From Undaria pinnatifida (taxonomy: Eukaryota; Sar; Phaeophyceae; Laminariales; Alariaceae): 64,000 nt of DNA. A program made the position numbers and the translations under genes. Within the stretch, counting starts at the first letter, position 1, and each line of letters opens with the position of its first letter. Shown one piece after another: positions 379 through 32,080 of this stretch. The notes beneath the pieces were generated by a model. It was not told the origin of the DNA. It did not search any database and saw only the letters and a program-made list of their open reading frames with translations. The DNA lies in the NCBI GenBank assembly GCA_012845835.1, contig JABAKD010000029.1:9412231-9476230 (forward strand), given 5' to 3'.

Positions 379-533
379 TTGCAACAGTGGAAGCTGCAGC
401 GACGTAGTGAGAGTGCAAGCTACGTCGGCCGCGGTTGAGGCGCTGACGAGCATTCCATGGGGTCCCCTCGTCGGGGCCCGCTCCCTCTCTCCCCCGAAAC
501 GCTAAGGCGCTCACAGGGAAAGGGACGGGGGAA

Positions 534-577
<44 letters not shown>
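534..577 (+). repeat. 44-base poly-G run
   Basis: An uninterrupted run of about 44 G residues lies within repeat A copy 1. The second copy has a shorter, interrupted G run at the same place (about 31377-31397), so the run has expanded within the element. Long open frames through it are low-complexity artefacts. Confidence 0.9.
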
Positions 578-1285
578 CTAGCCCGCAGGTAGAGGCGGTC
601 CCACATGTTCTCGGGCAAGCAAGCCCCTCCACACCTGATATCATCCACTGACACCTCTTTGAGGGTGTTGCCTTGCCAACCCGCGAGTGCGGTGGAATGT
701 CGCCGCCGTTTCTTGCTTGCTGCCTCTCACGGGTTGGTTCGACCGAGGTCGTAATGCCTCTCGCCAGAACGGTACTCCTTACTGGCCGACAAGGATGTGA
801 CTGCTAACTACGACCGTAGGTGAGAGGTAGCGTAGGTCGCAGGTGATACCCGAAAAGTGCAGCAACAACCAGGATTACCCACACTTGAAGTAGATGTAAG
901 TTGGAAGTATCTCTGCGAGCATGCACAGCTCCGTTAGTACCGCAGCCCGCTTTGTCCCATATGCCATCTGCATCGATGCGACCTAAACCATGGCTCGGTC
1001 GATTCGAGCTACCTGGGCCACGTGCTGAACTAAACGTGAACGGGTTTGCGCCGCATGTGCTAGTCGCGGCGTTGGTGCTTACATGAAGGTACGTTTATGC
1101 TTGTGTTTGTTTAGTTGCTGTTGTTTCGTGTTGGGCATGGGGGGGGAGGGTGATACGCGCTCGCCAGGGCTGCTGCCAATGTTTCCTGAAGTTCGGGCGA
1201 TGGGCGATGTTGTGGTTTCAGTCTCCCTGCGGCTGTTGTCGAGTGTAGCTGTGCGCCTCGTACGCCACGCATGCGTCTTGTAGAT

Positions 1286-5930: not shown

Positions 5931-6960
5931 TACTACCCCCCTCCCCATGCCGCTAACGTCGTGGCCGCTCCGAAACGCGAGGAGACGAGAGCTGAACTCC
6001 TTGAGGTTACCCCCAGACTGCAATGCTCATAAAGGCTTACAGATACGTCTATACTCGAAACAATACTGCCACGCCTGTACGATGACAACGGTGAAGATTC
6101 AGACGGAGTGAGGCCCAACGACATCACGTCCACCATCAACGCGATGGAACTGCCGTCCGCGCATACACCTGAACGCGGACCGATGACCTCTTTCCGTGCT
6201 CGTACAACAATGCAACTTACACACAAAACCTCGATGTGGATAACCCGGTGCCGGGGCAAATTCCAACAACTTGCTGCGAACGGGAGAGACTACACACAAA
6301 GCCATAATACTGCGCGTAAGACATAGTACTGGATGCGCGACCCGTGGTCGTTCGCAAAGAGTTCGTCTGGCCCCACCGTAAAAAAATATCGCAGCGCGAC
6401 ACACGTTCGTAATACGCGGCCTCCATCGCTCCAAAAGAGAATCACACACACCTCCCACCAACCAACACAGCCCACGAAATGTAAAGAAGATATGACATAC
6501 ATCCGCAAGCGTAGGAGTCACCTCGGCGACATGCGCGGCGGTAAGCAACCATCCGTCACAAAGTTTCCGAGGACGCTTAAAGACACATAAGAACCACCAC
6601 GTGGCACCTCACCCCGCCTGGGTTGATTCATCCATTGAACCCATGGCAGGGTTTTGCCCCCCACTTATCATAAACCTTGCGTGCATATCGCAGCTGCGAC
6701 TCCGTCTGGATGACATATACCCACGCGATGATCACCATGCCCTACAACTCGAGCAAGTAAAATACATAAGTTATCCTGGTGCTGCGCATTCGACATCACG
6801 TGGGAACGTCTTCCGAGAGAATCCCCACGATCGTGCCAACACAGCGATAACATGCCATTGTGTCCAGTGGCGGTGAACAAAACAGTTTCCGCGCCGAGAG
6901 AGTTTGGATTCCCGGAAAACGTTAAATAGGTAACAAGTACCACATATGAAAAACTAAGGC
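5931..6960. other. Coding-like fragments, unassigned
   Basis: Several overlapping frames of 70-150 codons are open on both strands (for example 6108-6326 plus, 6601-6876 plus, 6668-6943 minus). A plus-strand stretch around 6048-6250 reads like an acidic linker (LYDDNGEDSDGVRPND). No domain or splice structure could be assigned. A decayed mobile element is the simplest explanation. Confidence 0.25.
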
Positions 6961-6999
6961 AACAAACGCTTACCTGGTCATTGGATGCAAGAAGGCGGC

Positions 7000-7215
7000 C
7001 ATGGTGAGATGGCGGCAGCTCTTATCTCTTCGGTCATCCCCTCTTGGACACTGATTTCGTCCAAGAGGAGGGGACCGTAAAAAAAAGTGGTGCCACCCTC
7101 TACCACGTCCGTCCTCTGACACACAATGACCAGGGAAGCGTTTGGTGAGCTTGTTTTCCACTTTTCGGTGCCTAGTATTTACGTACCTACGGTGTAAACT
7201 ATGCGATATGTAAAT
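7000..7215 (+). pseudogene. Degenerate copy of kinase-like gene exon 1 and the start of intron 1
   Basis: On the plus strand, about 7040-7132 reads TDFVQEEGT...GATLYHVRPLTHNDQ. This parallels TDFFQ...GVATNYHGRLLTRNDK at the end of exon 1 of the gene at 15465. The similarity continues into noncoding DNA: about 7140-7215 resembles 15640-15720 (TCGGTGCC...GTACCTACG against TTGGTGCC...GCACCTACG). That indicates duplication at the DNA level, not by retroposition. The 5' splice site after NDQ is no longer GT-consensus here. Together with the exon 2 copies at 7.64-7.99 kb it forms a broken partial duplicate. Confidence 0.65.
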
Positions 7216-7637
7216 CCTACAGGTACGACTACTGTTACTAGTTTTAGTGTGAAAAGCATGCTTTCCTGTCCTTTCGTGCATACGTGAAGCCAGTGTAAAT
7301 ATTATCTCCAAAATGCCGCGTACCGTAAGTATACTGGTCATAATGGTTCGTCACTTTTCCGTCTGAAGTCGTAATATCTTTAACAATTAGGCAGGAAACG
7401 TACTATTCGTATGGTTGGACACGCGAAACTACCTTTCGTCCGCGATTCCTTTGCTACGTTGTTCAAACATATTCGAAAAGGTCAGCCAGTGAGTTCAACC
7501 GGTTGGACGGCCGATAACCAGCTTTGCAGGATACTTGATACGTCGGCCGCGCGGATTATGTGCTGCATTCACTCCTGAAAAGGATACACCAGGCAGGCCT
7601 TTCTAATTGTTCTGGGGAACCTCGCCGTCTGTTCCGG
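7216..7637. other. Presumed decayed intron between the duplicated exons
   Basis: No independent gene was seen. Its position between the exon 1-like and exon 2-like copies suggests a shortened and diverged counterpart of the 2.5-kb intron 1 at 15636-18099. Confidence 0.4.
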
Positions 7638-7806
7638 GGAGTTGCCACGTGGGCCTGGGCCAACCTTGTGTGCCCGTATGATGAGGACGTGGTCGAAACG
7701 CGCTCTGACCTACTACGGCGCGATGCTACAGGGAGACCCTGAAATAATCAAGTACTGCAAGACCCAGGCTGGGAGTTCATCGTCCTAGAGACCCCCCCCC
7801 CGACCG
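7638..7806 (+). pseudogene. Degenerate forward copy of kinase-like exon 2
   Basis: This reads ATWAWANLVCPYDEDVV, then in a shifted frame LTYYGAMLQGDPEIIKYCK, then WEFIVLE. It parallels NTWTWVTVVYPHDEDVI...CYGAMVQGG...KIVKYCKRQG...FVAME in the intact exon at 18100-18263. At least two frameshifts separate the pieces, and the 3' splice site preceding it (TTCCGGGGAG) lacks the intact gene's CTTCCAG form. It is a nonfunctional host-gene duplicate. Confidence 0.75.
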
Positions 7807-7807
7807 G

Positions 7808-7990
7808 TGAGCCTCACTCGTCGGGGACCTCGAGGACGATGAATTCTCAATCTCGGGCTTGGCAGTACTTTAGAATGTTCGAAAGTCCCTGGAGTATTCC
7901 TCCGTAGTAGGTCAGGGCGAGTTCGACAAACGACTGTACCATGGGGGCAAACAAATGCATGCCCAGGTCGACGAAATAGCCTCCTGGAAT
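7808..7990 (-). pseudogene. Degenerate inverted copy of kinase-like exon 2
   Basis: Read on the minus strand, this begins after a well-preserved 3' splice site (TATTCCAG). It continues EAISSTWAC..., then in another frame VELALTYYGGILQG...ILKYCQARD, then a stop codon, then EFIVLEVPDE followed by GTGAGG at the place of the intact gene's 5' splice site. It faces the forward copy tail to tail, with the two 3' ends a few bases apart at about 7807. The copies differ from each other by about 30 percent, so the inversion is old or brings together different paralogues. Confidence 0.75.
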
Positions 7991-8039
7991 AGACGGCAAA
8001 GTTCCTAAAAAGCAATTGAAAAATCTGCACCCTTAACCA

Positions 8040-11944: not shown

Positions 11945-14900
11945 CGTGTATATCTTGTCCGCTACAGGGAACTACCTGTCTGATTAAATAACGGACAAGG
12001 TGGCCATGAATATGTTAATGTTCGTGCTTCCCACATGATTAACAGCCCATTGCCATAATCTAGCCCGTGGTTACGAAGAGGCACAAGGAGTCACTCCACA
12101 GGTATATAGGAAAACAAACCAAGCTAACCTCAGTCAGGCTTCTAACGAACTGGAGTTATGCCGAATTGGTGCATGAACACGAAAGAGGCCCTGCGCGTGG
12201 CGCCGACTAAGACAACGGGCAATGCATCTGCGTTCCGGCTTCACTCTCGATATCAGCGTCAAGGCCACATACAGGGGCCGACACCGTGTTATACTGCCGT
12301 GCTGCAGCTGCTGCTGCTGCTGCTGCTGCCGCTGCTTGCTGCTGCTGCTGTTGTTGATACTGTCGGCTGCCGGTGCTTCGTGCTTTGTGCTTCAACCTAC
12401 AAACATGTGACTTTGCAACGCTAACGGGCTTGCGTCTGTATACTCTGGAATGGTTGACGCGTGGCACTCGTCGCGCGATCAAACCCTCCGCGCGATCCTC
12501 TATATAGACTTACTTAATTTTGTCTTTCTCAGGGATTGCCCATCCCTGGCCTTTCAGAGCTCCAACTTCCATATTACTTGCGGAACCTTTCCAGCTTTTC
12601 TGTGCTTTCCAGCTTCGTTCGAAATACGAAACGCCAATAGTACATACCGGTACTACTACACCAGGTTTGTACATACCATCAGATACCGTACGCTGTTGGG
12701 TCACATGCACGCCCAGCTCAGATCAGTCCGGCTATATATAGCCCAGCAGCGCAGCGTAGCGCCGTGCGGAGCCGTGCGGTGCGGTGCCGTGCCCTTCGCT
12801 GTGGTGCTGTGTCGCTGCGCGCTGTGCTTTCTTTCGAAAATAGAGCAGTACCGGGTATAATGCGTGTTGTGTACGGAGTACGACTTTTCCTCTTTTTTCT
12901 TTTTCTACATAATATATTTGATCTTTTACGGCCCCCTGTTTTTTCCCCCACGCAAATTACCCCCATACTGCCGATCAGACACCGGTAACAAAAGCACACA
13001 GCACAGCTGAGCACAACAGGGCAATTTGCTTTGCACAAGCAGCTCTTGGCATTATCAAATCGCTGTTCGCACCGAATCATGGGTCTCTTCTTTCTGCCCC
13101 CTTTACATACGTTTTTAGTTGCATTCTTCCTTGCCTCGCGCGAGCGTAGCGGGTGGCGTCAGCCGCCCGCGGAGCGGAGCCCTTGTACTACATGTACTGC
13201 TGCGATCCTCAACTGCTGCTGCTGTGGTACCATGTGGTATAATGTGTTTGTTCGTACCAGGCGGCCCCTTTTCGAGCCGCATCAACGTTGTTGGGGACCA
13301 ACTCCTCTGCCAACAACTACTGCTGCAGTAATGTAGGATATTTCCGGCATCCAGTTCCGGGGTTCAGCAATCAGCAAACGTCCAACGCGTTTCAGAGCCA
13401 CTCCGGACGCGTTCGACTTCTGCACTACTACCTGTAGATGAAAACGCTTACTTGCTGCTGAACAACCTGCCACTAGCTGCTGGAGGTCACAGAAATTGCG
13501 CGACAACACATACGTTATGCGCGACTGCTACACTGTGAACTGAGAGGGTTGTGCATGTGAAGAACTCAAGAAAACGTGCCAGGTAACCTGGTACCTCGTA
13601 CGAAACACGCACCTGGGATCCAGGATCGCCGTACGATGTATGCGAGCACGAGCCCAAGTCTCCATATAAGTGATGGATTTTGAAGGAGCCGTGAATCTGC
13701 CCCAAAGGAAGTGGTCTGGATCGAGACCCACCACTACCTGCGGATAACTTGGGTAGTGCGTATCTGATACTGCTATGGTCGGAGCTGAGGTTGTGTGTGA
13801 GGTTCGGGGGTTGCTTCTACGGGGTACTACCGACACCTCGTCACCTCGTAATCGTCGACAAGGAGTTCCATGTCATGCAAATGGATTCTTACACCGTGGA
13901 TGCAAATCATGCATAAAAATGAAGAAGTTTTTGGGGCCAAGCTTTTCACGAGGGTGCGCCCCTGCTGTCTGAGCCCTGGGGTGCGAGGTCGATTATCTTG
14001 CGCTCTCGGCAGCTACTATTTGAATCGTAAGCTGCGTGAGGAGGCCTTCGTAAAAAGCCCAGAACAGCTTCTAGAAGACTTGCGTGTTCCTCGAACCTCA
14101 AAAAGTTACACTCCCAATATGTCTGCTTCTCGCAAACACCGCTGTCGCAACGGCCGGAGCTCCTTTTTTTGCGGATGAATCTGAAAAAAGCACCAGGTAA
14201 AACAAAGGTAGCCCATCGTCCGCTGAACGATAGCACGAAGCCGGTACGTGGTAAAACAGCTATAGTGGACGTCCAGACTTTTCCCCATGAACGCCCACAC
14301 ACACAATGAACGGACAGACCTGGTTGTGAGTTGTTGCTCTTTACTGCCGCGGTGGGCCGCGACTTGCTGCTGGATCTTGCAGGCGCTTCTGTACCTCGGC
14401 CGACCAGGTGCCGATGTCAAGTGGATTATCTACTCGTAACCCTTTCTACAGCAAGCATCAATACAGCACCAATGTACAAACGCTGAGACATGCAGTGCTC
14501 AGAAATAGCCGTCGCACAGAGTCAGTAGTAGTGCAGAGGGAAAGATGGTGCTTATGCGCGGCATCACACAGCTCGCTTCGTAGCGTCTTCATCGCATTTA
14601 TTTGCCGCCTGGATGCACCCACAGACCCGTGGGCAGCACCAAGAGTCGGGATACTGACTGCGTGTGACATGATCATGATGTCGCACCTTGCAATATATAG
14701 CCGACCGATTGAACTCAGGCTCGCAGCCTCCAGCCTGCAGTCTACAAAACAAACATCGCGCTACAGACACACACCGCAGTGTGCCACCACCGTACACCCG
14801 CGACTTCACGACTACCTGGTACCACGCATCGCTCACGAATGGTTGTAACCTGTACCTACCTGGTACGGCCTGACTCCGCCCGGGCATGGTGATTGATGAC

Positions 14901-15464: not shown

Positions 15465-18400
15465 ATGTCTCCTTTTTTAGAGTTTCTTAGCGACAAGGAG
15501 CACACGGGTGACCCGCTGGCGATGTCGCACCAGTGGCCCCCACCCGAAGGCACCGATTTCTTCCAGGTCAGGATGGTCGAAGAGCAAGGGGTAGCTACCA
15601 ACTACCACGGCCGCCTTCTGACGCGCAATGACAAAGTGAGTACGTAGCGAGCGTTTGTTGCGATCGTTTTTTTCCATATGTTGGTGCCTTGTACTTTACG
15701 CACCTACGATGCAAATCGACAGGCAGTATGAATACTGAACCTACACCGGGACAAAGGTAAAGTCGCGCACAGGGGAGGAGAAGACATGGCATATTTGACC
15801 AAGGCTTGTCGGAAAGGTTGCTAGGAGGGCAGCTAATACCTGGTAGATCTACTACTTCAGCTAGAAACTAAAGGCAATGGCGGAAAAAAACAAACAAACG
15901 CAGAAAAACGGTATTAATAGTCGTACTGTAGTCTATGGTGTGTGTACCAAAGTTGCGGGTATATTTTAGATATTTGGAAATTGAAATTCTCTCGTCGAAG
16001 AAACCTTGCTTTAGCCTACCGCCGCTCCGATTTGCGTGCTTCCTTGAGCTGCAAGCGCGAGGGGTTGGTTGTTCTTGCCCGAGCGGACCCCGCCCGTCAC
16101 CACCACCACCACCACCACCACCCCAACCGCGGGCAAAGTGTCGCAACGGGCGGACTAACTGAGGTGTTTGGAGTAGATATAATAGTGCGACGACTGCTTC
16201 TTGTGGTTGTATAATCAAATCCTGATAAATTCGACGAAAGACGTTACTGCATCATTGATTATGCATTACACTACTACTGTAGTATCTGTGTACTCGTAAT
16301 CAAGGGGTAAAACACTATAAAAAAGAAAGATGCCCGCCAGAGGTACCACAGGTATCATGCCATGCGCTCGAACAAGCCAGGGAGGCTTAAAACCCTGTTC
16401 AGTCGTTCTTCCCGGGTACCTCGTCCCCTCCCCCCAAGCTGTGTTCCTTGTTTCCCTCTTCCTTTCTTTCCGGTTTGTATTATTCTTTCTTATTCTCTTC
16501 TTTTTTCGTTGCAGATAGTCTGGTGTGCTGGCTTGCATTGGTGTTGCCCTCGTGTTCATTGCGGTTAGCATTGCATGGCCAAACCATCTTGCGACTCGTG
16601 CTGCGACAGAGGTATAACTTTTGGTCTGAAATGGTTTCTGAATGACGGGGCTACTCAACCCAAAATCGTCGCAAATAGGCCATTTTTTTTGCATGATTCT
16701 CGCTGTATACCTGAGGCCTTGGGGAGTTTCATCCGGCAGCGCTTGGGCGGCGGGCTAATTTTCTCTCTTCCTAAATCAGTTTTCGGGTTAAGAAGGACAT
16801 GTCTTAAGCTCTGGTAAAGTGAGGAGCCTCAGGAAAAAAAAAAGTGGTGCACCTCTGTCGTAGCACGCGTCTTGCTGTATTTGCAAAATGTATCTGTCTT
16901 GTAGTGTGTGACGACACCATCATAGCTCGTATCTCTAGGAGGCATCGGCACGGACACAGGTTGTGCTGGATATAGATGGGTGGAATACCAGTTTGAGGTG
17001 AAGAATGCACACCGGTAACATGTGCGTGTATTTCTTGGTCTCTCTGACAGGCAAAACAATGCCTAAACCCCGATATGTTGAAAATACGACGATCTTTGTC
17101 GTTTTTAAAACGACGAAGATCGGCACCTGCAGGAAGAGGGGTAGCTTCTGCCCATCGACATCCAGCACACCCAGAGTCCGTGCCGATTCATCATCCCAGA
17201 GAGATGCAAGCCTGTGGTCACAATCTACGAGAAATCCACAGAGTGCAAGAAAGTTATGTGCATCGCAGCTACAGCATGGACACTTGGCCTTCTAATGCCG
17301 AACGCACTGAATACGAACAGTGGAGCATACACAAGCAAGCAAACCGGGCAAGATGAAGGAGCGAAAGAGCAAGGAAAAGTAAGAGAGAGAACGAAATCGA
17401 ATAAACAATGTAGAACACTAGATATCAGAACACACAAAAAGCAGTTACAGTATGTACCCTGCATATTAGGCCGAAAGATGCTACCCGTGGTACGAGTGCT
17501 AATGCTCGTTTCATAGAAAGGATGCCGAGGCGGGAAGGGACAAGATGCCCAAAAAAATAATTGAGATAATATACAAAACAAGGCAAAATGCAAAAAAACG
17601 TCAAAACGAAACCAAACAAAACAAAACAAAACAAAACAAATCGAATACGAACAGACAGAACCAAAGCAGACCTCAGACAAACGGCGTCGGGACAACATGT
17701 CTTACCCGCAAATGCCGGGTACAGTACACCAAATATTGTTGGTTGCATTTGTTCGTTATTTTTCCCCTCTGAAGTCACAAAATACTCAAGATACAACATA
17801 CAGTACCGGCCCTCTGACAAGAAGCTGAGCTATTGGTTTTAGATTAAGTTTTCACATCTGAGAAATGGGGTTATCTCACAAACTTCAGTATAACAGCTGT
17901 AACATTTCCCATGTAACCGTTGAGCCAGGTGTCTTTCGGGGCTCTTTCCTACGAGAAGACCGGTCGTGTACGTCCAGATGTGTATGCAGCAAAACCACTA
18001 CTCGTATGATTTGACATGTAAAACAACCTTCCGCCATCGACTTCCTTCTTACGCTTTCTTATTGTGATCGGGGACCGGGGACCTTGTCGTCTCTTCCAGG
18101 CGATTAACACATGGACCTGGGTGACCGTTGTGTACCCTCACGACGAGGACGTCATAGGGCTCGCCCTAGCCTGCTACGGGGCCATGGTCCAGGGGGGAGC
18201 GAAAATTGTCAAGTACTGCAAGCGCCAAGGCTGCGCATTCGTTGCCATGGAAGCCCCAGACGAGTGAGCCAACTTGTTTCCTGCAAATTTATTTTACGGA
18301 GTAGCATTGATGGTGGTTGCTATTATACAATGGTAGGGCCTAGTTGTGCATCCTGCGGTTCTATGGCGGGGGGGGGTGTACTCAGTTTGTGCATGGCGTA

Positions 18401-18930
18401 GTCGTATGGCCATAGACCATCGCATCCCTACTATGCCGGGACGGAGCACGTCGGGTTTCACCAACCAAGCAGATATTGTTTGCTTGCATCAAGCGCGAAG
18501 CGCCGTGAGGTGCTCGGCGAGCATGAAGGGTAAACTGCGTCCTTCCACGAACCGCCCGTAAGACGAACTTCGGCACATTGTGCCTTCTTTCTTGCTAACG
18601 CCAAGGAGTCATACTTTGTTTTCTGGTGTGGCCACTTTAGAGACAGCAATGGGTATTACTATGCAACTGCCTCTTGGGTGCCTTACCATATTCACACTAC
18701 GTGATGCGGTAACTCCCCTTGTGCGGAGTTAGGGTTCTCCACCCCACACAATATGATCTAACTCGATAACCATCATGGTGACAGCCAAAAAAATAAGAAG
18801 AAAAAAAAGGATAACCTGGCTGTCTAGCTCACGCAGTGACTGGCATGTTTTACAGCGTCGTTGCCAACCAATGCCAACCCCAGTATACGTACAACGGTTT
18901 ACAGCGTCGGTGCCAACCGAGGCCAACTGT

Positions 18931-18967
<37 letters not shown>

Positions 18968-21900
18968 TTATATTAAGGGGGAGGGTATAAGAGGTAGTTG
19001 TAGTTTGGGTAAGCAATTGGTGAATATGTTTAAGCAGTAGCACGAGTAGTCAAACGGACTATTACCCTGCAATACCTCGTCATGGTAGTGCATGGCGAGC
19101 TGAGACGTAGTTCAGGGCATATCGGAGAAAACGTACAACCTGATTGCCTGGTAAAATTCAGGCAGCTCGTAGAGAGACTACTGTAGTACTTCAAAACAAC
19201 CTAATATCCAGGCTTAAGGTCGGTAATATTCCCGCCGTGAAATTACCGCTCTCGTGGGCGGTCCCGGCAATTCCGCGGTTTACCGCCACATTGTGTAATT
19301 ACCGCTTACCGCCAAAGCGGTTACCGCCATAAACCGAAATGCCGCCTACCGCCAAAACAATACCGCCGTATTGCAATACCGCCGAAAAAATACCGCCATA
19401 ATCGTAGTTGTCCCCTACCACCGAATTAATACCGCCAACTCTCGATACCGCCCAGAAAGTACCGCCATCTCTCGATACCATCCAGAAAGTATCGCCAACT
19501 CTGGATACCGCCCGAAACATACCGGCGACACTGGATACCGCCCGAAAGGTACCGCCTGCACTGGATACCACCCGTGTTCTTTTTTTCGTATTCATCTGTA
19601 TTATGTGCTCTTTCTTTTGGTTCTGCGAGTTTCTTTCGGTAGAACCGCTTTGTGGACATCAAGGTATTCGATTGTTATGTTATTATTGGGGGTTCCGGGT
19701 GGTACAGCTTTTTTGCGCGCTCTGTTCGTGCGTTTCGCATGAGGCTGCTCAATTTCATTCATGGTGAAATGGGCAACCAAAGTTTCCCCATTGGTTTTGC
19801 CTCCGCTCTTCGTCCGAAATCGCCGTACAAACCAACCGTTCGAAGGGAACAAGAGCAACCGCCGGAGAGAGGTTCGGGCTCCAAAAGCATAGCGAGGCAT
19901 CGCAATACCGCCCAACATTCGGGTTTACGTTCACGTTACCGCCGACAAACAAAAACCACCTACCGCCAAAACAAATACTCATGTGTTGCATTACCGTCAA
20001 AAAAATATCGCCATATTTTGTATTTACCGCCGACCGCCGAAAAAATACCGCCAAAAACCGAAAACTGTCTACCACCAAAACAATTGCCGCCGTATTGCAT
20101 TGCCGCCAAAAACATTCCGCGATATTTGTACTTTCCGCTTACCGCCAAAGTCGTTTGCGCCAAAAACCGAAACCCCGCGTGCCGTCCACAAAAAAACGCC
20201 GTATTGCAATATCGCCCCGCCTTAGTCCGCCTAGAAAACCGGTATCGACCTTAACCCTATATCATCCTCTGTGAACGCCCCGGGCCTTGTGAACCCCCCA
20301 CCCCCAAAAAAACGCCAGGGACCCAAAAAAGACTTGAGAAAGCCACGGGCTAAGTTTTGTTTCTTGCGACCCCACGCCTTTGAGTTCGCCCCAGGATGTT
20401 AGTTTTCGGGTATTCTTTAGCCGTCCCACGAGGCCCTCACGTAAATCCAAGGCATTCATCCCGGCAAAACTGTTGTTGTTGTTGTTGTTGCTGTTGTTAT
20501 CGTTGCCGTTGCAGCCGTTGTTGTTTTTCATTGTTTACATTAAAAGCCTTTTCGTCGACTGAAACTCACGCACCACCTTGGTACGTACTCCTGCCGACAA
20601 ATATACGACAAAACCATCTACTAGAAAGCATTCAAGAAGCAGGAGACGCCCTTCTTCTGGCTCTTGAATGCTTTCTCGCAGATAATATTACGATATACAG
20701 TGGTGCTGCTATGAATTGCATGAGGCAGGTCGCAGATCAGTGTGTTAAAGATGTTGCTCCTTGGTCAGACAGTGTTCATCACCGGTAAATCACCCAATGT
20801 TACAACGTACTTTTGCAGTTTGGCTCGTAGTACTTCGCAATCTTGTTCGTGACGTGATGGTTATCGAAACGAAAACCAACCCGATAAGAAGCGAAAACAA
20901 TTTATCAATATCGACAGCGACAGTTAAGACGATAACATTAGCTTCAATATGGAAACCAAGTACCAGGTATACGATAGATGATACTTGCCGAGTTAAAAAC
21001 CACAAGTCAGGCCATACACCCACCTTTCTCCTCACAATGTTTTTTTTACTGCTTTGTAGCACCCGGGTTCGTGCTGGAACGCTTGAACAAGGCATACCAA
21101 TAGAGAGTTGTTGCTGTGCTGAGGCGTGTATCTGCATATACGCCTCTCACCATGGCGTATGGTGTGTCAGCGCGTGATCCCGTCAACACATTTAATAGGT
21201 GTATGGCATCATCGCCATCTTTTGTCGTAACCAAACAAGACAATATTTATAGGTATAGGTCGACACAAATCGGCATGGTACGGCAATACTGGTTGCGATT
21301 AATTGGATTATGCGACTTGTCCAGAAGGTCGCTGTCGGTAAAACCTCTTATAAGTTGAGCTGGAGAGTAAAAGGGATTGTTAAAAAAAAACACCGAAACA
21401 CGTGAATGCAATCTCTACCATTGCACCTGTAGTATTTTAATAGACTACACTGGTATCATGGTACGCGTAGGTATAATCGTTTGCCGGTCTCCGGGCTATT
21501 CACTGTCTGCGCCCTCCATCGCAAAGCAAGCTCGTATCAACAGGCTGTGTGTCGTGAGTGCCAGGGGTCTTCGGCCAAGTGACGAGCAAAAACCCGTGGG
21601 TATCTTTCAACTCCAGGACAGAAAACAACTAAGATGACCGCGCAGGCAGTGATCTCGAAACAATTGTGCATCTGCCCATCCGGTGGTCCGTCTTTCTTTG
21701 GGGTTGATGGAACGTCTTCACACGTCGGAAAGGTCACGATCTAGATCATGTAGATCCTACACCTGTCGGTATGACATGTGGTACAGCACAGATCCAACCC
21801 AGGAAATATGTGCTAGATCATGCAGATCATACCGCTCGTGCCCGGAAATACGATCAATAGATAGATCATGAGTCATCCCACGCTAGGGGTGCAGCAGATT

Positions 21901-24900
21901 CTAAGAATTTTCTGAGCTCCTAACATGAGGAGCTCAACGTCTCACCCGAAGCACGACTTCGAAGACGCTTGTTCGCGCATCCCCCACGGGTATTTCTATC
22001 CGCTTGTTCTGAAAATGGCTCACTCGTAAATTTCTCATACTAAACGATAGTTCCACACTTGAGGAGCTCAACCGCTCACAAACGTTTAGTTCAACAACTG
22101 CGACCCCTACCGTGGGATGACTCTCATGCACATGATACATACCATATACCAGGGATGCATCTACAATGAAGGGCACCGACCATGAAATGGGGTCTGATCT
22201 GCCCGATGCGTGGAAATGTTGAGAGCGCTGTCCCGATTAAATCTGTTTATCTGCCGATCCGCTGGTTCGCCCTTAGAGTCAATAGGATGTTTTCCCGAAA
22301 CCCCTTTAGAATTGAACCCATGATTTTGGGTATAATCAACTGAGAATTGTGATATTGTGCGCCGTCCGACAATGTGCAGCGGAAGCACCAACCCCAAAAA
22401 AATGATTAAGAAAAGCCCTGACTAGTCGTGGGGAAAACATAAAAAGTACGACAAACCAACAAGTTGATGCACAGATACCAACTTAGAACTACTGTAGGAT
22501 AATTTTTTCCAGTGGTAAAAAGGGGTGGCTCATGGTTCGTGCTTTGTGGTCCCCTGCTGTGATTCACTCACCTCATTTTAGGTACAAGAGCATGGGCCTC
22601 AAGCAATACATCCAGTTCAGGGCGGACGTCGGCAACCAAATCGTCGATGAAAAAGAAAGAATGGAGTCTATCGCCTACGAGGTAAGCGAGGAGAGGGGAA
22701 CAAGCGCTGCTGAGCTGTTGTTTGTTTTTGCGTGCTCGAAGGCCCTACCTTTATAGTTTAGAACAGCTGCAACGAAGCAGGGGTGCAGAGCCAGTCTGGA
22801 TTTCTTAGTTGAGAAGCCCGCCCAGCATGAATTTCTTAGTGATTTATACAGTAACATCAAGATAACCTCATCGGCGTTTTTTAATTCGTACTAAACATCG
22901 GCCTGTCTCCCTCGGTGGTCGTCGCTTTTCTAATAGTAGGTTTCCTGTGCTGTAGTTTGTAGACGTGCCAGATTGTTATTTTCACGAAGTAGTACGTGAC
23001 ACTGTTGTTGTAGAAAGCTGTCGCAACTAAGCGACGAACCGTTTACCTGCTCGGGGTGGCGGGATTTTTGAATGGGAATCTCGATACTGCTCCGTGTTCG
23101 TGTTGCCTCTAGCTTTATATTGTTTTTTTCCTAGTGTGGTTCGGATGGCTTAGGAGTCTCCCTGGAGGATGCTGACCATTTACTCAGTCCAAGCCCCTCA
23201 CTTATGTGCTTTGATTGATGGAATCAGTCTCAACTAACGGCGTGCGCTCAGACAATCAATGTTTTCAACGCAACAACGTCCGTCTGACGGCAAACGGCCT
23301 GGCCCGACGCACGAAAATATAATCCGCGCGAAAGTACACAAAGCCCTGCCGTTCTTCCTTTCGTGACTCTGCCGGCCTCTGAGACACCGCACTTATCGCT
23401 TGCGTTTCGATGACGTTCGCCGTATGTTGACGTTTTTAACCCCGCACGAAGCTCGTGCGGTCATGCTTGTCGCAAGCAGGTCGGGAGGCCTCAATAAAAA
23501 ACAAATCGACGTTTGAGAAAGTCTTTCTTCATCGCAGGCCAGGATAAAAATTTTTACAGAGGGAGCACGAGTTGCGGTGGTCCTCGCAACAGACAATAGC
23601 GATCGAGAACTTGTTCATGGAAGCACAACATCGTCCAGTGTCTAAACAAAGACCACAGCTACGTATAATACTGAGTACACGCCCCCTCTCCCTCTCTCTC
23701 CCCCTCACTCGCCCGCTCCAACGCATGCATCCGGCGGGCTTAAAGCTCTCGCGGCAAGTGGTCGGCATCCATGATATTGGCGTCTACCACAGGGACCTGG
23801 GTGTTCACAGCGTCATCCTCAACAACTTCGCCCTCAAGACCACCTTCGGAGCGGGGGACGTCCACATGGTGGGCTACGAGCGAGCCGGCACGGTGTCTGA
23901 CCGGTTTAGGAAGGAGGTGGGTTTTTAGCAGCAACATAACCCTTCGTCGACTTTTTTGACTGTTGCCGGTGGTTGTCCCCGTTCTAGGAAAAGGGGAGAG
24001 GGGCGAGTTGAGGTATTGGGAGGGGTGCAGTATGGGGCAGGAGGTAGAGCATGTCATTGGTTAACGTGCTTGGCCTCGCATCAAAGCAATCGATACGTTT
24101 CTCGGAAGATGCGCTTGGCTATGCTCGCGACGAGTACCAGTTTTTTCGTGATGGGTGTCGCTGTTCGAACAAAGGGGGAGGGGCGGGGTGATGGTGTGGT
24201 AGAGTAGCGAGAACCAAGGGGCAGAGCACTTCGCAGGGTAACGAGCTTGACCCATACCAGAGGCAATTATGACGTTTCTTAAAGATGCGCTTGACTGCTG
24301 CACTTGTCGAGTGCTGCAGTCTTGTCATAATGTGGACAATTTGTTTTGCGGTTACGGTTTTCGAGTTAACCTTTTCTCGTTGGCAGGGTTTGGTCGGGAA
24401 ATAGAGTTCAATGTTTGCATATATACTTCAGTGTAGGCTAAAAGCGAGACACCAAAACGTCGAAGAGTCCGAAAACGTGATCTTGTGGTTCTCTTACCGT
24501 GGCAAACTGGAAATCATCAACCTATTTATAGCCATCAGCCCTGAAGATAACATATTTCGGATTTGGACGCTGGAGGCGTCGTGTTGACCGTGCGTTCGGC
24601 TGTTGGATTCTGAATAAAACGACCGAAATTTCAACCCAACCTTAAATGTTTATGAACGACAGCCGTGCTTTGGGTGAAGCTCCAGTATTTGTACGACGAT
24701 CAGGCTGATGTGCCACGAGGATAGTCCGTTCAAGTGGTGGGAATTGGTTATTTTCGTGTTTGCAGCTCGAGATTTAATTTTTTTCATTGTTGGTGAGTCT
24801 TCTGTTGTGCGGCACTGTGGCACTGAGCTGATTGTGGATTCTCCAACAGAAGGGCACGTGTGATAACGAAGGAATTACAAAGTTTAAGAAGTTAAACGAG

Positions 24901-27900
24901 TCCACCGCAATCCAACCGACTAACCACGACGCAACTCGTCCGACCAGTGCTGTGGCCGCAGAGCACTATTGACAGTGCTTCAGAGCTCCTCGACAAATCA
25001 CTTGATTGCCGTGTACCCGCAGTTCAGAAGGGCAGAGGGACAACGCGAGCGGAGGTAACGGCACCAAAAAAAGAACGAGCGTTCGATACACCTTACGGAC
25101 AGAAAATTGCACAGCAGCAATCAAATTGGTGTGCCACACACACCACAACCTACCCCATTGGCCATTGTAAATACTTATTAGCTAGTGTCCGACATTGTGC
25201 CAGGTACGTTCCATTGTATTAAATGACACGGCGCAGATGTTGATGCCCTCCCCCCCCCCCCCCGCCCTTACCCCTCCCCCCCCCGCACCCTTAACACGAC
25301 AGAACATGGATAAGGAAACCCGTAGAGCAGATGGCAAAAACGGGATGTCCACTGCCGTGGAAGGTGACGAGCGGTTGTTGAGAGCCAAAGATATGCCAGG
25401 CCACAAACTGCTGCCCAAGATCGCTGATCCCCTTGCGGTGAGTGGTAACGGTGGGGGTATGGGTTATTCCGCCGCCTGACGCCCTGAGCGGCGTATTGGC
25501 CCACGCTATCCAAGACCGGTGTGTTCAGTTTGTGTTCGGCCTCGATAGCAGTTTCTTTTCAGGCTGTGAACTGGTTGTAATTCGATTTTTTTTTTGTCAG
25601 TTATTTGTAGTGTGTTTCGGAACAACCATGGGATGCTCGCGGTTATTACCGGTCGCTCCACATCCCGGTCCACCGGGTGGTTGAAGTGGTTACGCTCGAG
25701 ACTTTCCCACGGTAGGTCCTAGGTTCGATTTCACGGCGGTCTCTTTTCCCCTATGAGAGCCTATTATTCCTATGGGATGTACGTCTTGTGTGGTCATTTT
25801 CCTATAGGTGTTTTATTAAAGAGAAAGTGCATAGACTCCTACCAATATGTAGACATGTCGTAAGAAAATATAAGTCAACGTGAACCGGCACGGCGAGCGG
25901 TGGATTTTGGTGACCCCTTCGAGCGATAAAGCATAGGCTTGTACATACCATAGCGGAGACGGGAGGGGGTGGGGGGCGTTGGTACCCCTATCGATCTAAG
26001 TATTAACAAAGGGCAAGGGGAAAAGTTAAAGGCTAAAGGGATCAGCACAATCAAAACTGCAACGAATTGCGCGCCGCCCTTACACAGACTTTCCTCCAGC
26101 GGGCACAAGATGCCCCTAATCCGGGGATCCATTGATAGGAGGACGAAATAACTAACAAAAAAGGGGGAAAAAAATTTCCGCCTTTGTTTAATAACGTTTG
26201 CTCACGTTATTTTATTGGTTGGTACTGCCAGGTGTACAGAGCCTCAATCGAGTACAGTCTTAGCGTAGGAGAGCTCGCCTGAAAGCTTGGCGATGCTTTC
26301 CTACTCTGTGTGTGATTCCATCCTGTTAACAATGGATCTCCGTCGTAGTAAAGGATTCAACAGCTCTCGCACCAAGGTTAGTTTGACAAAATGTCTTTCT
26401 TTCGATATTGAAAGATTCAAGTTGTGGCAACACAGACGCGTATGGACAAGAACCACATGGCGAGGCAATGTATCTGTAGCGCTTACGTAGGGGCCAATCC
26501 GTACCGGTGTCGCGTGCATACACAAGTCCCCCCCCCCCCCCACCGCAACGATGGGCGTTTAATGCCATGGCCTGAGCAAGGCCAGGGTACCCCCCCTTTT
26601 TCACTACTTGGTGTTCACTATCATACCATACGATACTCGCACGAGTGACTCTGTACATCACGGACCAAAAACCGTCACCTGGTAAGTGGTTAGTTGGCAC
26701 ACCCCATCAAGGATTCATATCGGAACATTTAAACAGCACGGAAGCCTACGACCGCAAGGAACAGGGAGGTCACTGTCGCGAGGGACCCCGAGAAGTTCAA
26801 AAGGGACCGCCTTACCGTAGCTTCGGTCGCCTACACCTGCAAGACTAGCATCGTGCGGGCATGGTCGGTCAAACTTGTTCCGCTGGAAAAATCCTACAAG
26901 TCGTGTTCAGGTCCTATCGGGCGCCCCCCCGGCGAGTTTTCAACATTTTGAAATTTGAGAGAGGTAACGTGACGAATTGTACGGAGACATCTCCAACGTC
27001 CACCTATCACGCGTTGCCGTCCGGGATGCTCCATTACGAGATGAAAAATACAGTGTCCGAGCTGCAATGTAAGAGGTTGCACAACTCGTGCTGTCAGATG
27101 CTAAATACTACACGTATCGCTACGATCTCGCTCTAGGCAGCTGATCAGACCTATGCTTTGGACGTTTTTGGTCGTTTTTCTTGGGTTTCCAAAGGAATGT
27201 TTTCTTGTGCACAGCACACAAATCGTTTAGGCGGTGTCTGTGCCTCGGGCATCCCTTCAACCTCCCTTTAGCTGCGAAGATACGCGACAGATGTGCCAAA
27301 TCAGTCTAACAAACACCGTGTACGGTTACCCCTTCCTTCCGATATCCCTACAATTGTTCATTTGTCAGCTTGAGTTCCCCCTCGGTCTAGAGTCGCAGCC
27401 CTCCTCCAAAAATGTGGTTGGTATTGTCAACGAGAAGTTGCTGGACCGCTACCTCCTTGCGGACACCGTCTTCCGCATGTTCGGCGGCAAAATCGACGGC
27501 CTGAAGCCGGACCGCATGCCTGACGGTGAGTATAATTGTGTTTTGGGGTGTGCGTAACGCGGGCATTCATAGTACGTGACTGCTTTTAGGTTCGTTCGTT
27601 GTGGGGTGGCTCATGTCACACCGAACGTGTAATGGAGTGTGGTCCAAATATGGGCGGCTGTATTTCACGGTCGCTTTGGGATATCGGTTTGTCGTGGTTC
27701 ACGTTCTAGTATTTCAAAGGTAGTTTCTTGGGTTACCTTGTCTATAAGGTGACGCTATCGTTTGGCAAATATCCTTGGTGTTGAGGTCTTCATGGGGTAT
27801 GTTGGGAGCCTTGACCCATGAATGAACGAGGGTATGCTTCGGCGCTTCGCGGGAATTTTAGTGCAATTGCGGTCTTGGGGTCTTCGTGGGATATATGGAC

Positions 27901-30717
27901 GCTAGTCCCGTAAATGAACGAGGGTATGCTTCGGCGCTTTAAGGGAAATTAGATGCAATTGCGAACTTAGTGTTTATTTTAATACCACTGGTAGTAGTCA
28001 ATAATAAGCGCGAACATTGGCAGCAACTATCTACGTCCTATCATTTTCAAGTTAGATGGAGGGAACAGTGTGCCTCCCAGGGCAATAAACGTTTCCGCTG
28101 TATGATATAAAAATGCGTTTCTGTGGTATGGGAGCAATGCGGTGAGATTAGGGGAGGCCTCGTTCGGGAGTAACTAAATAGTCCTATTAATAGGGGAGAC
28201 ATAACGCGTACGGGAAATCGAGACGGGATACCGACCTCTTTTAGACTGGCGGTCGCCCGTGCGACTGAGCGATTCACTCGCGACCAGGAGTCGTTTTTCT
28301 CCACGTCGGCAAACAACACCTGTACAATGACCACTCTCGACGAAAGCGTGACGGTGGTTTGGTAACCATAATCACAGTCCAACGGTTCCTGTATTTTCGT
28401 TTCTGGGTGGTATGGCATAGCATTCAATCGTAAACATATTGGCTTTGGTGATGCCAGCTCTCGAAGATTTCTGCCGAACCAAAGTGCCGAGAATATTTAA
28501 TGGGTGATGATCCAGCTCGCTTGCGCTCCACTGCCATCGTGAGTCCCTGCTTTGGCGAGATAATACTTTAGTGCCTGACGTGTGGACATGCTGTTGTTTC
28601 AATCACTGCCCAGATCTGCACTCGTTTCTGGTGGGACTCTCCGCCTCGGACATGACCAAACGGTTCCACCCAGAGGCGGAGCTCAAGAAGCATGGGTGGA
28701 TGCAAGTGAGTTCTCGTGCCGCGGAGTACAGCGATGGCATCGCCCAATGCATGCCCTGTTTATGGTTTTGAAATGTAGCGCAATAACGGCCTTGTCTGCG
28801 GTAACGTTAGCAAAGACATTGTTTGGAGGATGCAGAAAAAACTTGCGAAGTGTATCGATCGGTTCACGGGGCTGCTGACACAAAAAAAACAATGCAAAGC
28901 GACCATGTACTCCTATGTTTAGCGTGCTCTTGATGCGTGGAAAACTGGCCGTGATAGGATGGCGAGCCGTTGAAATTTTTCTGGCTAACACGCCTCAAGA
29001 GATCACGCACGGGGCTCTATAGTGCATATCACGTGAGGCCGACAAACAACACAAATTACAGTTAGAGCTTCGCCTATGTTGGCCCACGAGCATCGCACCA
29101 TCGCTCGGATTGCTTAGTATTGCTACATACCGCTGTAGGACGATATATCTAGGTACCCCCCTCAAATGAAACAAAGAAATTCTGACGTCATCGGTCGGTG
29201 ACATATCCTCTCCTCATTTTAGTCAGCAAGACCGTCAGCCACGACTACAAAATAAATGCTGCTGTTCGCCTGTGCGGCGGCGTCGAGTGCGACGCACTCT
29301 TCCTGCTACCCCTAATCCCCGCTGACCAGCGGTGGCATGCCCCGATGCCGACCTAATGTAATGACAGAGGAGAGCGGCGATCGCGGCTGCAGTCTTGGAG
29401 GGCAAGAAACCCGCCAACGTAGAGTCCCCCACCGGAGAGACGATGAAGACGCTGTGGGCACCGGCACAGGCAAGCCAGGCCAGCGGCACGACGGATGTTA
29501 GGGACACAGTAAACCCCGTAGATTTGTTGGCCCGAATCGGGAAAGATGGCAGGGATTCAGGAGCAGCGGCGCCCGAAGCCAAAGCGGGGGCGGCCAGTCC
29601 TGGGCCCGTGGCTGCAGTACAACAAGTACCGTCGGGGTCGCTATCGGGGTCGGGGTCCGGGTTAGGATCATGGTCCGGGCTGGGTCTACCGACAGTCTCG
29701 GAGTCGGGGTCGAGCCCAGATTCGGGTTGTGTCTCATTGACCGAGTTACAGGAGGTTAAGAGAGAGAGCGAGAACGGCGGCGGTCGCTCCTCTCCTCCCT
29801 TCAATGAGGACAAGCGCATGGTAAGAGGGAAGGGGGCAGACATTGGCGAAGGTAAGGGTTTAGACGAGAGAAATGAGAAAGAGAGCGAACACCCTGATGA
29901 TCGATTGTCTCCTCTCTTTGGTGTGGGCAACGGCCTTTGGGTGGGGAAGGGAAAGGAGAAAGGGAGGGCATTGGAGACGGGGAAGGGCGAGGAGCTAGAG
30001 AAAGAGGGTCGAGACAGCGGTGACCGCTCGTCTCCCCCCTTCGGGTTGGGCAAGGGTTTGTGGGCGGGGAAGGGGAAAAGGATGGTGTCTGAGATGGCCG
30101 AGTACGAGGGAGACAGGAAGGACAAGACTAACGGGGCGGGGACAACTCCGACGCAATCCACTACCGCGGCAGCAAGGATCTCGGACTTGGAGGAAGCGGG
30201 CGCAGGAAGCGCGAAACCTAATGGAACCGGGTCGACTTACAAGCGCAAGCGGTGTGAAACGGACGGGGCTTCCGATATATCTGATGACACGTCGTCAAAG
30301 CGCTGCCGGTCTTGTCCCAGGAGTTGCGGAGGAAGTCCTTGGAGAAAGGCACTTTCCGTACCCAAGGCTGTAGCGGACGGGGCGATGGCGGTCCCGGATG
30401 GTTCGACATTCATCAGACCTTTCATGGGGTCGGACATTGTCGAGCCGTGCTCGCCCTCCGACCTCTACACGGTGAGTTTGTTTTTCAGCACAGCGCGTCG
30501 CCATAATACATGTAATTTGCAATGTCGACGACATATTCACATCCCGTGGACGCGAGCAATATATGGTGGTGGCGCGATCGCTTTCTGGGCCCTCTAGACG
30601 TAGATAGCTGCGCCTGACCCATGGCATGCTCGCTCATTGTTCCAGCTATTCGCTTCTCGGACGGCGCCGTGGAAATGTGGGTACTTACTGTCGGCAGTGG
30701 GTACCCAGCAGCTGTAA
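15465..30717 (+). CDS. Divergent protein kinase-like gene, probable pseudokinase with long charged tail (9 exons)
   Basis: Exons are 15465-15635, 18100-18263, 22582-22681, 23746-23916, 25303-25437, 27369-27525, 28614-28705, 29368-30471 and probably 30646-30717. All eight junctions are GT-AG and agree in phase, giving about 721 residues. Kinase landmarks appear in order: a degenerate glycine loop (EEQGVATNYHGRL, about 39-51), IVKYCKRQGCAFVAME (about 93-108, beta4, beta5 and hinge), SIAYELSRQVVGIHDIGVYH (helix E), HRDLG at 160-164, VHMVGYERAG at 184-193 in the DFG position, LADTVFRMFGG (helix F-like), and DDLHSFL...KRF...LKKHGWMQ (last helices, about 297-330). The Asn of HRDxxxxN is Ser, DFG is GYE, and no VAIK lysine is apparent. 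It is therefore probably catalytically dead (inference). The start is uncertain: the downstream Met at 15522, or an exon spliced at TTTTTTAG near 15476, are alternatives. The last exon and the acceptor of exon 8 are the weakest parts. Confidence 0.75.
15636..18099 (+). other. Intron 1 of the kinase-like gene
   Basis: It begins GTGAGT and ends CTTCCAG. Its first 85 bases resemble 7140-7215 in the broken duplicate. It contains a CCACCA-rich tract (about 16097-16125), a T-rich stretch (16440-16515), one copy of a short dispersed repeat (16937-16995, also at 44722-44778 and 46650-46700) and an A-rich AAACAAAAC tract (about 17580-17645). Confidence 0.6.
18100..18263 (+). CDS. Kinase-like gene exon 2 (N-lobe, hinge)
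   Basis: The acceptor is CTCTTCCAG, and the donor GTGAGC splits the Glu codon of the APDE motif. Reading past the donor gives a false TGA. The next exon supplies G to restore Glu, then Tyr-Lys. This is the exon duplicated in both orientations at 7.64-7.99 kb. The hinge reads FVAMEAPDE. Confidence 0.8.
18415..18925 (-). repeat. Dispersed repeat family B, inverted copy in intron 2
   Basis: Read on the minus strand it matches 1870-2290. At its minus-strand start the GTTGGC...CGACGCTGTAAA block is duplicated in tandem (18840-18925). It lies within intron 2 of the kinase-like gene. Confidence 0.7.
18926..18970. repeat. TA dinucleotide tract
   Basis: An imperfect (TA)n of about 45 bp directly abuts the end of the family B copy. 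Confidence 0.85.
19240..20245 (+). repeat. TACCGCC-motif array
   Basis: Over about 1 kb of intron 2 the heptamer TACCGCC and close variants recur dozens of times at irregular 10-30 base spacing, separated by AT-rich segments. A related longer block, ACCGCCGTATTGCAATACCGCC, includes the 12-base palindrome GTATTGCAATAC. A central section (about 19600-19900) lacks the motif. No protein is credible across it. Confidence 0.8.
19431..19574 (+). repeat. 30-bp tandem repeat, about 4.5 units
   Basis: Inside the TACCGCC array the units become regular with a 30-base period. Each has CTCTCGATACCGCCCAGAAA followed by GTACCGCCAT or a variant. Because the period is a multiple of three, the translated frame shows a 10-residue repeat (SRYRPESTAI-like), but this is a consequence of the DNA repeat. 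Confidence 0.85.
20470..20530 (+). repeat. GTT trinucleotide repeat
   Basis: Imperfect (GTT)n with CTG and CCG interruptions, in intron 2. Confidence 0.85.
21870..22140 (+). repeat. Dispersed repeat family B, 3' third
   Basis: It matches 2262-2545. Shared blocks include GAGCTCCTAACATGAGGAG, GATAGTTCCACACTTGAGG and CTCAACC(A/G)CTCACAAAC. It lies near the end of intron 2. Confidence 0.75.
23746..23916 (+). CDS. Kinase-like gene exon 4 (catalytic-loop region)
   Basis: Exactly 57 codons sit between a long pyrimidine tract with acceptor TTAAAG and donor GTGGGT. It carries GIHDIGVYHRDLGVHS and VHMVGYERAG. Starting here keeps the distance from helix E to HRD normal for kinases. A longer open frame upstream (from about 23560) would add low-complexity residues that do not fit the fold. 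Confidence 0.75.
23970..24300 (+). repeat. Diverged tandem duplication in intron 4
   Basis: About 23970-24115 and 24155-24300 share the order GGGTG-rich start, GGGGCAGAG or GGGGCAGGAGGTAGAGC, AACG(T/A)GCTTG, and AAGATGCGCTTG. Identity is roughly two thirds by eye. Confidence 0.6.
25672..25745 (+). repeat. tRNA-like SINE head
   Basis: GGTGGTTGAAGTGGTTACGC followed about 35 bases later by GGTTCGATTTC resembles RNA polymerase III A and B boxes. The acceptor and T stems do not pair well, so this is not an intact tRNA gene. It lies in intron 5 of the kinase-like gene. Confidence 0.4.
27783..27985 (+). repeat. About 100-bp tandem duplication in intron 6
   Basis: Two units share GGTCTTC(A/G)TGGG and AATGAACGAGGGTATGCTTC, then GGCGCTT and GCAATTGCG, each in the same order. 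Confidence 0.75.
28047..28570 (-). other. Antisense coding-like stretch inside intron 6
   Basis: A 126-codon minus-strand frame (28047-28427) and an overlapping 76-codon frame (28372-28602) have balanced composition, but no family was recognised. They lie wholly within an intron of the sense gene and extend up to its exon 7. A decayed mobile element is likely. Confidence 0.25.
29368..30471 (+). CDS. Kinase-like gene exon 8 (long tail with internal repeats)
   Basis: This is the largest exon, 368 codons, and it is entirely open. It is rich in Gly, Ser, Glu, Lys and Pro and probably disordered. Three diverged copies of a module of about 40-70 residues contain SSPPFNEDKRMVRGKG, LSPLFGVGNGLWVGKGKEKG and SSPPFGLGKGLWAGKGKRMV. 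A Ser/Gly/Leu repeat precedes them. Near the end lie two basic clusters, YKRKR and SSKRCR, about 15 residues apart, resembling a bipartite nuclear localisation signal. The opposite strand is open for 308 codons (29235-30161) but gives only Pro/Ser low complexity. Confidence 0.7.
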
Positions 30718-30829
30718 TGACGCTTCGACTGGAGTGTCCCTACAACAAAGCGCAATCGCGCGGCATCGCACCTCTCGTAGGAAGCTCGCGACGCCTATCG
30801 ATCCCCCGACGAGCGCATGCTATTACTTG

Positions 30830-32080
30830 TTGTGTTGCCCACGAAGACATCATCAACATGAAAAAGCATGAAAACATCGGCCATAGGATCATTCAAAGTA
30901 CGTGTTAGGGGGGGGGGGGGGGGGTAGGAGCGGAAACCCAGCGACGCTCATAGCACAACGCTTGACAGTTAGCACAACACTTCACAGAAGAGACCGCTTC
31001 GTACTGGCGCAATAACCTTGTGGGGTTCATCTCTAAGGCTTTCCTCCTCTAATCATTCGGATATATCAGGTACCGAATATATGCCGTACTCTATTGACGG
31101 AAGAACCGCGGCTTCGTTCGTCGCAGATCGATGAGACGGCGTACGATGATACGCAATGGTGCAGCAGCGACGTGAGTGACCACGGGATCGACCCGTACAG
31201 CGCAAGCGACATCGAGGACGACATTGGCAACTGGTAGTGGCGGTGGCAGAGGTATCGGCGTGGCGAGGGTGTAAGCTACGTCAATCGTGGTGAGGGCGCT
31301 GGCGAGGATTCCATGTGATGCTCTCGTTGGTGCCCTCTCTCCCGAGAGGCTGAGGCTCTCACAATGAAGGGGTGGGCGGGGGGGGGGGGAGGGGGGGTGC
31401 CAGCCCGGAGATGTAGATGATCCCACGTGTTTTCGGGGAAACAAGCTCCCCACACATTTCATCATCGATTAACGCCCCTTGGAGTTTGTTGTCTTGCCAA
31501 TTCGCGAGTGCAAGGAAATGCTGCCGCCGTTTCTTGCTTGCTATCTCTCCCCCGTCGTTTTTGGACGGCGTAACACCTCTTGCCCATATGGCACTCCTTG
31601 CCGCCAGACGAGGATGTATTAACAGCCGTAGGTGGGAGGTAACGTAGGCCGAACGTGCTGCCTGAAATGGGACAGCAACAACCCGGGTGAGCAGTCTATA
31701 ACGTGGATGTAAATTGAAGTATTCCTACGAGCATGTGCGGCTTCGATAGTACCCCGTGTCGCGTTGTCCCATACGTCATCCGCATGAATGTACCCCAAAT
31801 CACGGCTAGTCCGCCGCGAATTATCTGGGTCACGTGCGGAAGAGTGAATGGGACTGGGTCGTATGTACATGTCGTGGCGTTTTCGATTGCATGGACGTAC
31901 GTGTACATACACGTGTGCACTCTTTTGGTGTTGCCGTTGTAGTGTGCCTGGTAGTGTGCTGGGCGTGGAAGGGGTGACACAAGCTCGCTAGGGCCATGGT
32001 GAGGCCGTGGGTCCCCTCTGCCTGCGGCTGGCGGCGGGCTGTGCGTGTGTTTCGCACCCCATGCACGTCTCATGTGTGTT
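30830..32080 (+). repeat. Dispersed repeat family A, copy 2
   Basis: Aligns in the same orientation to 1-1285. The acidic exon remnant lies at 31127-31237, after the 3' splice site TTCGTCGCAG. The right end fades out near 32080. Its left end starts about 110 bases after the putative stop of the kinase-like gene, so part of that gene's 3' region may be repeat-derived. Confidence 0.75.
31127..31237 (+). other. Acidic terminal-exon remnant inside repeat A copy 2
   Basis: 36 open codons then TAG, ending SASDIEDDIGNW. Compared with copy 1 there are several synonymous third-base differences and one whole-codon length difference, and the frame and stop are conserved. Confidence 0.4.

Follow-up and report, generated by a model that had tools for sequence, protein, structure and literature searches.

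Overall, we believe that the 64,000-nucleotide stretch of Undaria pinnatifida DNA analysed here, which we call the window, contains a nine-exon gene whose most plausible product is a catalytically dead pseudokinase, a scaffold or allosteric partner with a basic tail. To this reading, drawn from sequence, we assign a probability of about one half; that the core of the protein derives from a kinase, summed over the three readings that include such an origin, we consider quite likely, and the nine-exon gene itself is well supported in outline. As we picture it, a spliced nuclear brown-algal gene would encode about 720 residues, of which residues from about 30 to 330 would form a very divergent domain of the eukaryotic protein kinase type, followed C-terminally by a long basic tail that is probably disordered. 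With a serine in the catalytic loop, and with neither the beta-3 lysine nor the DFG aspartate seen, canonical Mg-ATP binding and phosphoryl transfer would be unlikely. The domain could then serve as a folded module for docking or allosteric control, binding partner proteins, and the repeat-bearing basic tail may supply localisation or multivalent contacts.

Exon structure and coding evidence

An earlier note on this DNA had proposed that nine short coding pieces join in phase into one protein, and this proposal was borne out. The nine plus-strand exons listed in Table 1, joined between positions 15465 and 30717, give 721 codons and a stop; the phase matches at 8 of 8 junctions, every one of the eight introns is bordered by GT and AG (the acceptor at 23745, before exon 4, reads aaag and is weak), and both the codon statistics and a tandem duplicate, copy A, are in accord with the model. 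When codon scores were computed leaving out one exon at a time, the correct frame ranked first of six in all eight of the exons tested (exons 1-8), with GC3 values of 0.60-0.82. Exon 9, which was not part of the training set, had a score of -2.1 in its own frame against 3.5 in another; it is weak by composition, yet copy A preserves its splice sites. A scan for exons among open AG..GT stretches on both strands found the donor end of all eight exons and, for six of the eight, both ends, but it had been trained on these same exons and is not independent. Better support comes from the tandem duplicate. Exon 8 contains internal repeats of ~39 aa, seen as self-matches offset by 117 nt.

The start of the gene is less secure. 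The ATG at 15465 is doubtful as a start codon, because a pyrimidine-rich stretch and an AG, together resembling a 3' splice site, lie by eye directly 5' of the conserved part of exon 1 both in copy A and in the nine-exon gene (copy C), and because copy A, also by eye, has no in-frame ATG at that place. Probably, then, exon 1 is internal and begins at about 15481, or copy A has lost its start. Two blocks conserved between copy A and copy C, at 13862-14018 and 14244-14434, were considered as upstream coding exons and set aside, as by eye they hold no common frame. Two candidates between exons 3 and 4 were likewise rejected. A tenth exon at 23538-23639 has a GC3 of 0.35 and a score of -9.5, and a clean helix E is obtained without it; its inclusion yielded no Pfam kinase and four PDB matches, among which the only kinase was a sensor histidine kinase. 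The stretch 23560-23745, taken as an exon in another frame, scored -13.4.

Elsewhere in the window, exons of a hexapeptide-repeat protein lie on the plus strand at about 52500-55050 (Hexapep, E 4.6e-10, with a hand-joined query), perhaps, judged by eye, a gamma-carbonic-anhydrase-like protein. On the minus strand, at about 40290-45020, are two pieces with IQ motifs (Pfam IQ, E 7.7e-06, hand-joined) that are perhaps one gene for a calmodulin-binding protein. Scanning the window for Rfam families and tRNAs gave no hit.

Table 1. Exons of the nine-exon gene and remnants of related copies (window coordinates)
Feature	Position	Strand	Remarks
Exon 1	15465..15635	+	N-terminal region; open frame, GC3 0.70, leave-one-out score 9.1; copies at L012:2902-3057 (copy A) and in L040
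Exon 2	18100..18263	+	proposed beta3, alpha C, beta4 and hinge FVAMEAPDE; codon score; copy A 52% identical and open
Exon 3	22582..22681	+	proposed alpha D and helix E (first half); codon score; kinase alignments span exon 3/4 junction
Exon 4	23746..23916	+	helix E (second half), catalytic loop with HRD, proposed GYE for DFG; codon score, motif statistics
Exon 5	25303..25437	+	activation-segment region; codon score, exon scan
Exon 6	27369..27525	+	helix F-like DRYLLADTVFRMF; codon score; diverged relic elsewhere on same contig
Exon 7	28614..28705	+	subdomain XI-like KRFHPEAELKKHGW; codon score, motif statistics
Exon 8	29368..30471	+	long basic tail of low complexity; 368-codon open frame; codon score; start conserved in L040
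Exon 9	30646..30717	+	final 23 residues and stop; weak codon score; acceptor kept in copy A
Copy B palindromic relic	6947..7160	.	both arms resemble end of exon 1
Copy B palindromic relic	7593..8028	.	both arms resemble exon 2; RNA fold z -15.4
Copy A exon 8 end, exon 9 and 3' flank	-390..1092	+	matches 30439-31900, 69.8% over 1520 nt; 3' flank at 1-1092

Kinase resemblance and the catalytic residues

Profile searches, for which exon 3 was joined directly to exon 4 so that the junction falls at residue 57/58 of a 114-aa segment, returned kinases as the best matches over helix E to the HRD loop, none of them reaching a curated cut-off. In Pfam the best match was PF00069, with an E-value of 0.026 and 14.3 bits for a 113-aa segment and 0.053 and 13.3 bits for 342 aa, short of its curated cut-off of 31.7 bits; behind it came DUF3798 (0.14) and Kdo kinase (0.16). 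NCBIfam gave Bud32 (0.0015), Kdo kinase (0.019), archaeal Bud32 (0.022) and MotS (0.063) for the 114-aa segment, and Kdo kinase (0.0092) and Bud32 (0.0096) for 330 aa, with scores of 14-18 bits (18.4 for Bud32) against cut-offs of 372 for Bud32 and 142 for Kdo kinase. From PADLOC, which states no cut-off, came MkoA (0.0011) and PD-T4-6 (0.0068), both of which we take to bear kinase domains. In all three libraries the part of the 114-aa segment covered by the kinase matches is about residues 54-83, spanning the exon 3/4 junction, which is also crossed by the five phmmer alignments to PDB entries that were examined. These matches support the kinase reading without proving it. The earlier claim that the protein diverges from any kinase family holds for the libraries searched, in that no Pfam or NCBIfam family matched at its cut-off and PHROGs matched neither half of the protein.

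Against the PDB, 56 of the 57 phmmer matches to the helix E-HRD segment were kinases, including many near-identical entries for JNK or Chk1, and the other was a GTP pyrophosphokinase; the best E-value was 0.12. With the whole 330-aa region, four of six matches were protein kinases, all four of them MAPK11. None of ten reversed or shuffled versions had any Pfam match. Exon 4 alone found no more than Chk1 in the PDB (E 0.95 and 1.5) and Kdo kinase in NCBIfam (0.05), found no Pfam family, and when folded on its own gave a pLDDT of 48 with three strands. The C-lobe half alone had no kinase match, and the sole match of the N-terminal 145 aa was DUF3798 at 0.14.

These results bear directly on the possibility that the gene is genuine and conserved but has a core without a kinase fold, the HRD and KR..H.W motifs being chance resemblances in an orphan protein. 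We judge this unlikely. In its favour, the hits to profiles stay under the cut-offs and centre on some 40 residues, the N-lobe and C-lobe pieces are without kinase matches, and a false-exon version of the protein, made of exon 3 and the intronic stretch 23538-23639 translated through, shows how spurious matches can originate. Its match to FdhD had an E-value of 0.00076 in NCBIfam and one of 0.041 in Pfam; we take this match as chance, and because of it E-values near 0.001 cannot count as proof of a kinase. It is opposed by the agreement of three libraries and the PDB on kinases at the same residues, by two kinase motifs in the correct order in separate exons, and by shuffled versions that match nothing.

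By inspection, the motifs run in the order hinge FVAMEAPDE, helix E EKERMESIAYELSRQVVGIHDIG, HRDLGVHS, VHMVGYE, DRYLLADTVFRMF and DMTKRFHPEAELKKHGW, as described earlier; a glycine loop, like an APE motif, was not recognisable by eye in the joined protein. The HRD and KR motifs, which follow the kinase order, lie in two separate exons. In the six frames of the window a loose HRD motif occurs once, within the nine exons, whereas 600 simulated windows together contained it 2 times; a loose KR..H.W motif also occurs once, again within the exons, against 3 times in the 600; and a two-part motif of HRD plus a DFG-like element occurs once against none in 400, all of these patterns having been written after the hits were seen. 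A stricter pattern from alpha E to HRD proved too strict and matched nothing, the nine-exon gene included.

At the level of single residues, two claims of the earlier note were confirmed. The HRD aspartate is present, in VYHRDL, which phmmer aligns to the HRD of MAPK11 and Chk1 in matches that are not significant, and in the loop so aligned (HRDLGVHS) the catalytic asparagine is replaced by serine. Two others stand in part. The best-placed beta 3 reads TWVTVVYP and is without a lysine, as had been claimed, but the placement is by inspection and uncertain, with no profile match there. The motif VHMVGYE is present, but its equation with the DFG position is ambiguous, since the hydrophobic VHMV pattern puts GYE there and the ungapped phmmer alignment GAG; neither has an aspartate, and one lies five residues before GYE, between the two. 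A helix F-like aspartate in DRYLLADTVFRMF and a subdomain XI-like arginine in KRFHPEAELKKHGW were placed by inspection, without profile support. In kinases, according to passages of PMC4718504, Lys72, Asn171 and Asp184 act in ATP and metal binding, and in a pseudokinase at least one of the beta-3 lysine, the HRD aspartate and the DFG aspartate is absent. If the domain is a kinase, canonical catalysis is therefore unlikely, because residues that bind ATP and metal appear to be changed.

Catalysis of a less canonical kind must also be weighed, and we regard as improbable a reading in which the protein is an active, atypical kinase-like phosphotransferase, with a WNK-like lysine, CASK-like use of metal, or a relationship to the small-molecule kinases of the Bud32/Kdo type. 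WNK takes its catalytic lysine from elsewhere, CASK uses metal in an unusual way, and small-molecule kinases have DFE at the DFG position, which the glutamate of GYE resembles. This reading gains weight because the phmmer alignment leaves the DFG position ambiguous, with an aspartate nearby; the HRD aspartate is retained, and Bud32 and Kdo kinase are the best NCBIfam models. It must, however, accommodate a serine in place of the catalytic-loop asparagine, a best-placed strand without the beta-3 lysine, and a glycine loop that is not seen.

Duplicates, relics and distant relatives

Copy A lies upstream in tandem with the gene and retains exons 1 and 2, each with an open frame and the second located at about L012:7885-8064, together with the 3' end given in Table 1; its exons 3-7 were not found in the window or in 100 kb on either side. 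Comparison of the gene with copy A across exons 1 and 2 (104 codons) gives dN 0.27 and dS 1.01 by NG86, and 0.30 and 0.93 by YN00, with differences of 29/20/45 by codon position and an excess at third positions (P 0.0024 under a uniform null). Exons 1-2 thus carry past coding constraint, with dN/dS of about 0.27, a value that speaks of past constraint only and of these two exons only; exon 1 alone, with dN 0.33 and dS 0.45 (YN00), shows weak constraint. The exon 8 donor and the exon 9 acceptor are retained in copy A, whose exon 9 is one codon longer, and the differences in exon 9 (7/5/8 by codon position in 23 codons) show no constraint. The 3' flank is duplicated between the gene and copy A as well, window positions 30970-31785 matching 123-973 at 73-74%.

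Genome-wide searches covered 511,146,479 bases in 68 contigs, in which the window is C36:9412231-9476230. Exon 4 had a single match at E<=10, and exons 6-7 matched this gene alone at E<=0.001. The 330-aa query gave at least 13 matches, seven to this gene, two to copy A, one to a further relic, copy B, and three weak ones, at C36:6846420 (locus L039), C52:2855938 and C36:10966925 (locus L040). No second intact copy of exons 4, 6 and 7 was detected genome-wide, and the relatives nearby are decayed. L039 has one piece that resembles exon 6 and another that weakly resembles exon 7 and contains a stop, and the piece on C52 is a single arm of a palindrome like those of copy B. Differences between the copy B relics and the gene number 40/32/54 by codon position over 122 codons, in comparisons that overlap. 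Frameshifts or stops in copy B and the L039 piece, and truncation of copy A and the C52 piece, would fit a once functional kinase-like gene now in decay and drifting like its neighbours, which we think very improbable given that this copy is open over 721 codons with its splice sites intact, and given the past constraint on exons 1-2. Beyond this genome, no relative was confirmed in prokaryote genomes (22 pattern matches), nor in viral contigs (5 pattern matches) or phages, where the query was the false-exon protein; one plasmid match, at E=5, was taken as chance.

The copy B palindrome at 7593-8028 would, by RNA folding, form a long hairpin. Because its exon 2-like arms are just 64-66% like the gene, targeting of the gene by such a hairpin is unlikely at present. 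A similar exon 2 palindrome occurs on contig C52 (L027 1276-1679), beside the same dispersed repeat as the window copy; this repeat, at 8054-8519 of the window, has parts matched at 67-84% on C2, C18, C21, C22, C28, C30, C48 and C52.

In L040 (C36:10962001-10970000, minus strand) an exon 1-like piece at 5095-4922, with 35-39% identity, is followed on the same strand, 3.5 kb away, by an exon 8-like start at 1469-1335 (44%). By inspection the exon 8 acceptor is at the same place as in the gene, and by eye its open frame of 290 codons holds similar KR-rich clusters. Exons 1 and 8 are thus linked in a second locus. Exons 2-7, the kinase core, were not found between them; the interval contains G-rich repeats and, by eye, a possible antisense helicase-like stretch. 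L040 keeps exons 1 and 8 without the core, and copy A keeps exons 1 and 2 and the 3' end, and on these grounds one might go further and speculate, as a long shot, that there is a brown-algal family of pseudokinases without nucleotide- and metal-handling residues, that relatives have shed the core, which would make the kinase fold an optional module, and that the hairpin palindromes were once a source of small RNAs against the family.

Significance and comparison with known systems

Brown algae evolved complex multicellularity independently. In the open-licence PMC literature, little was found on brown-algal pseudokinases and, among the papers listed, apparently no dedicated study, although an oomycete kinome was among them. 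A degenerate kinase under constraint would be a candidate scaffold in brown-algal signalling, and the case suggests that genes of this kind can sit beneath the cut-offs of curated profiles.

With the protein kinases of PF00069, the predicted protein shares the stretch from helix E to the HRD loop and, as placed by inspection, apparently also the order of motifs, a helix F-like aspartate and a subdomain XI-like arginine; it differs from them in a score of 14.3 bits against the 31.7 expected of a member, in the change of asparagine to serine, and in a VAIK lysine, DFG and APE that are not recognised. Bud32 (NF011461) and Kdo kinase (NF002475) are the NCBIfam families that it matches best in the HRD region; unlike them, it has a KR..H.W motif that resembles the end of the C-lobe in eukaryotic kinases. 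Among the pseudokinases described in passages of PMC4718504, ILK likewise has serine for the catalytic-loop asparagine, and, if GYE is the DFG position, STRADalpha (GLR) likewise has glycine for the DFG aspartate and TRIB1 (SLE) glutamate at the third DFG position. The likeness to ILK, STRADalpha and TRIB1 is one of functional class, by residues alone, in a protein where the beta-3 lysine is not seen and a basic repeat tail is present at the C-terminus.
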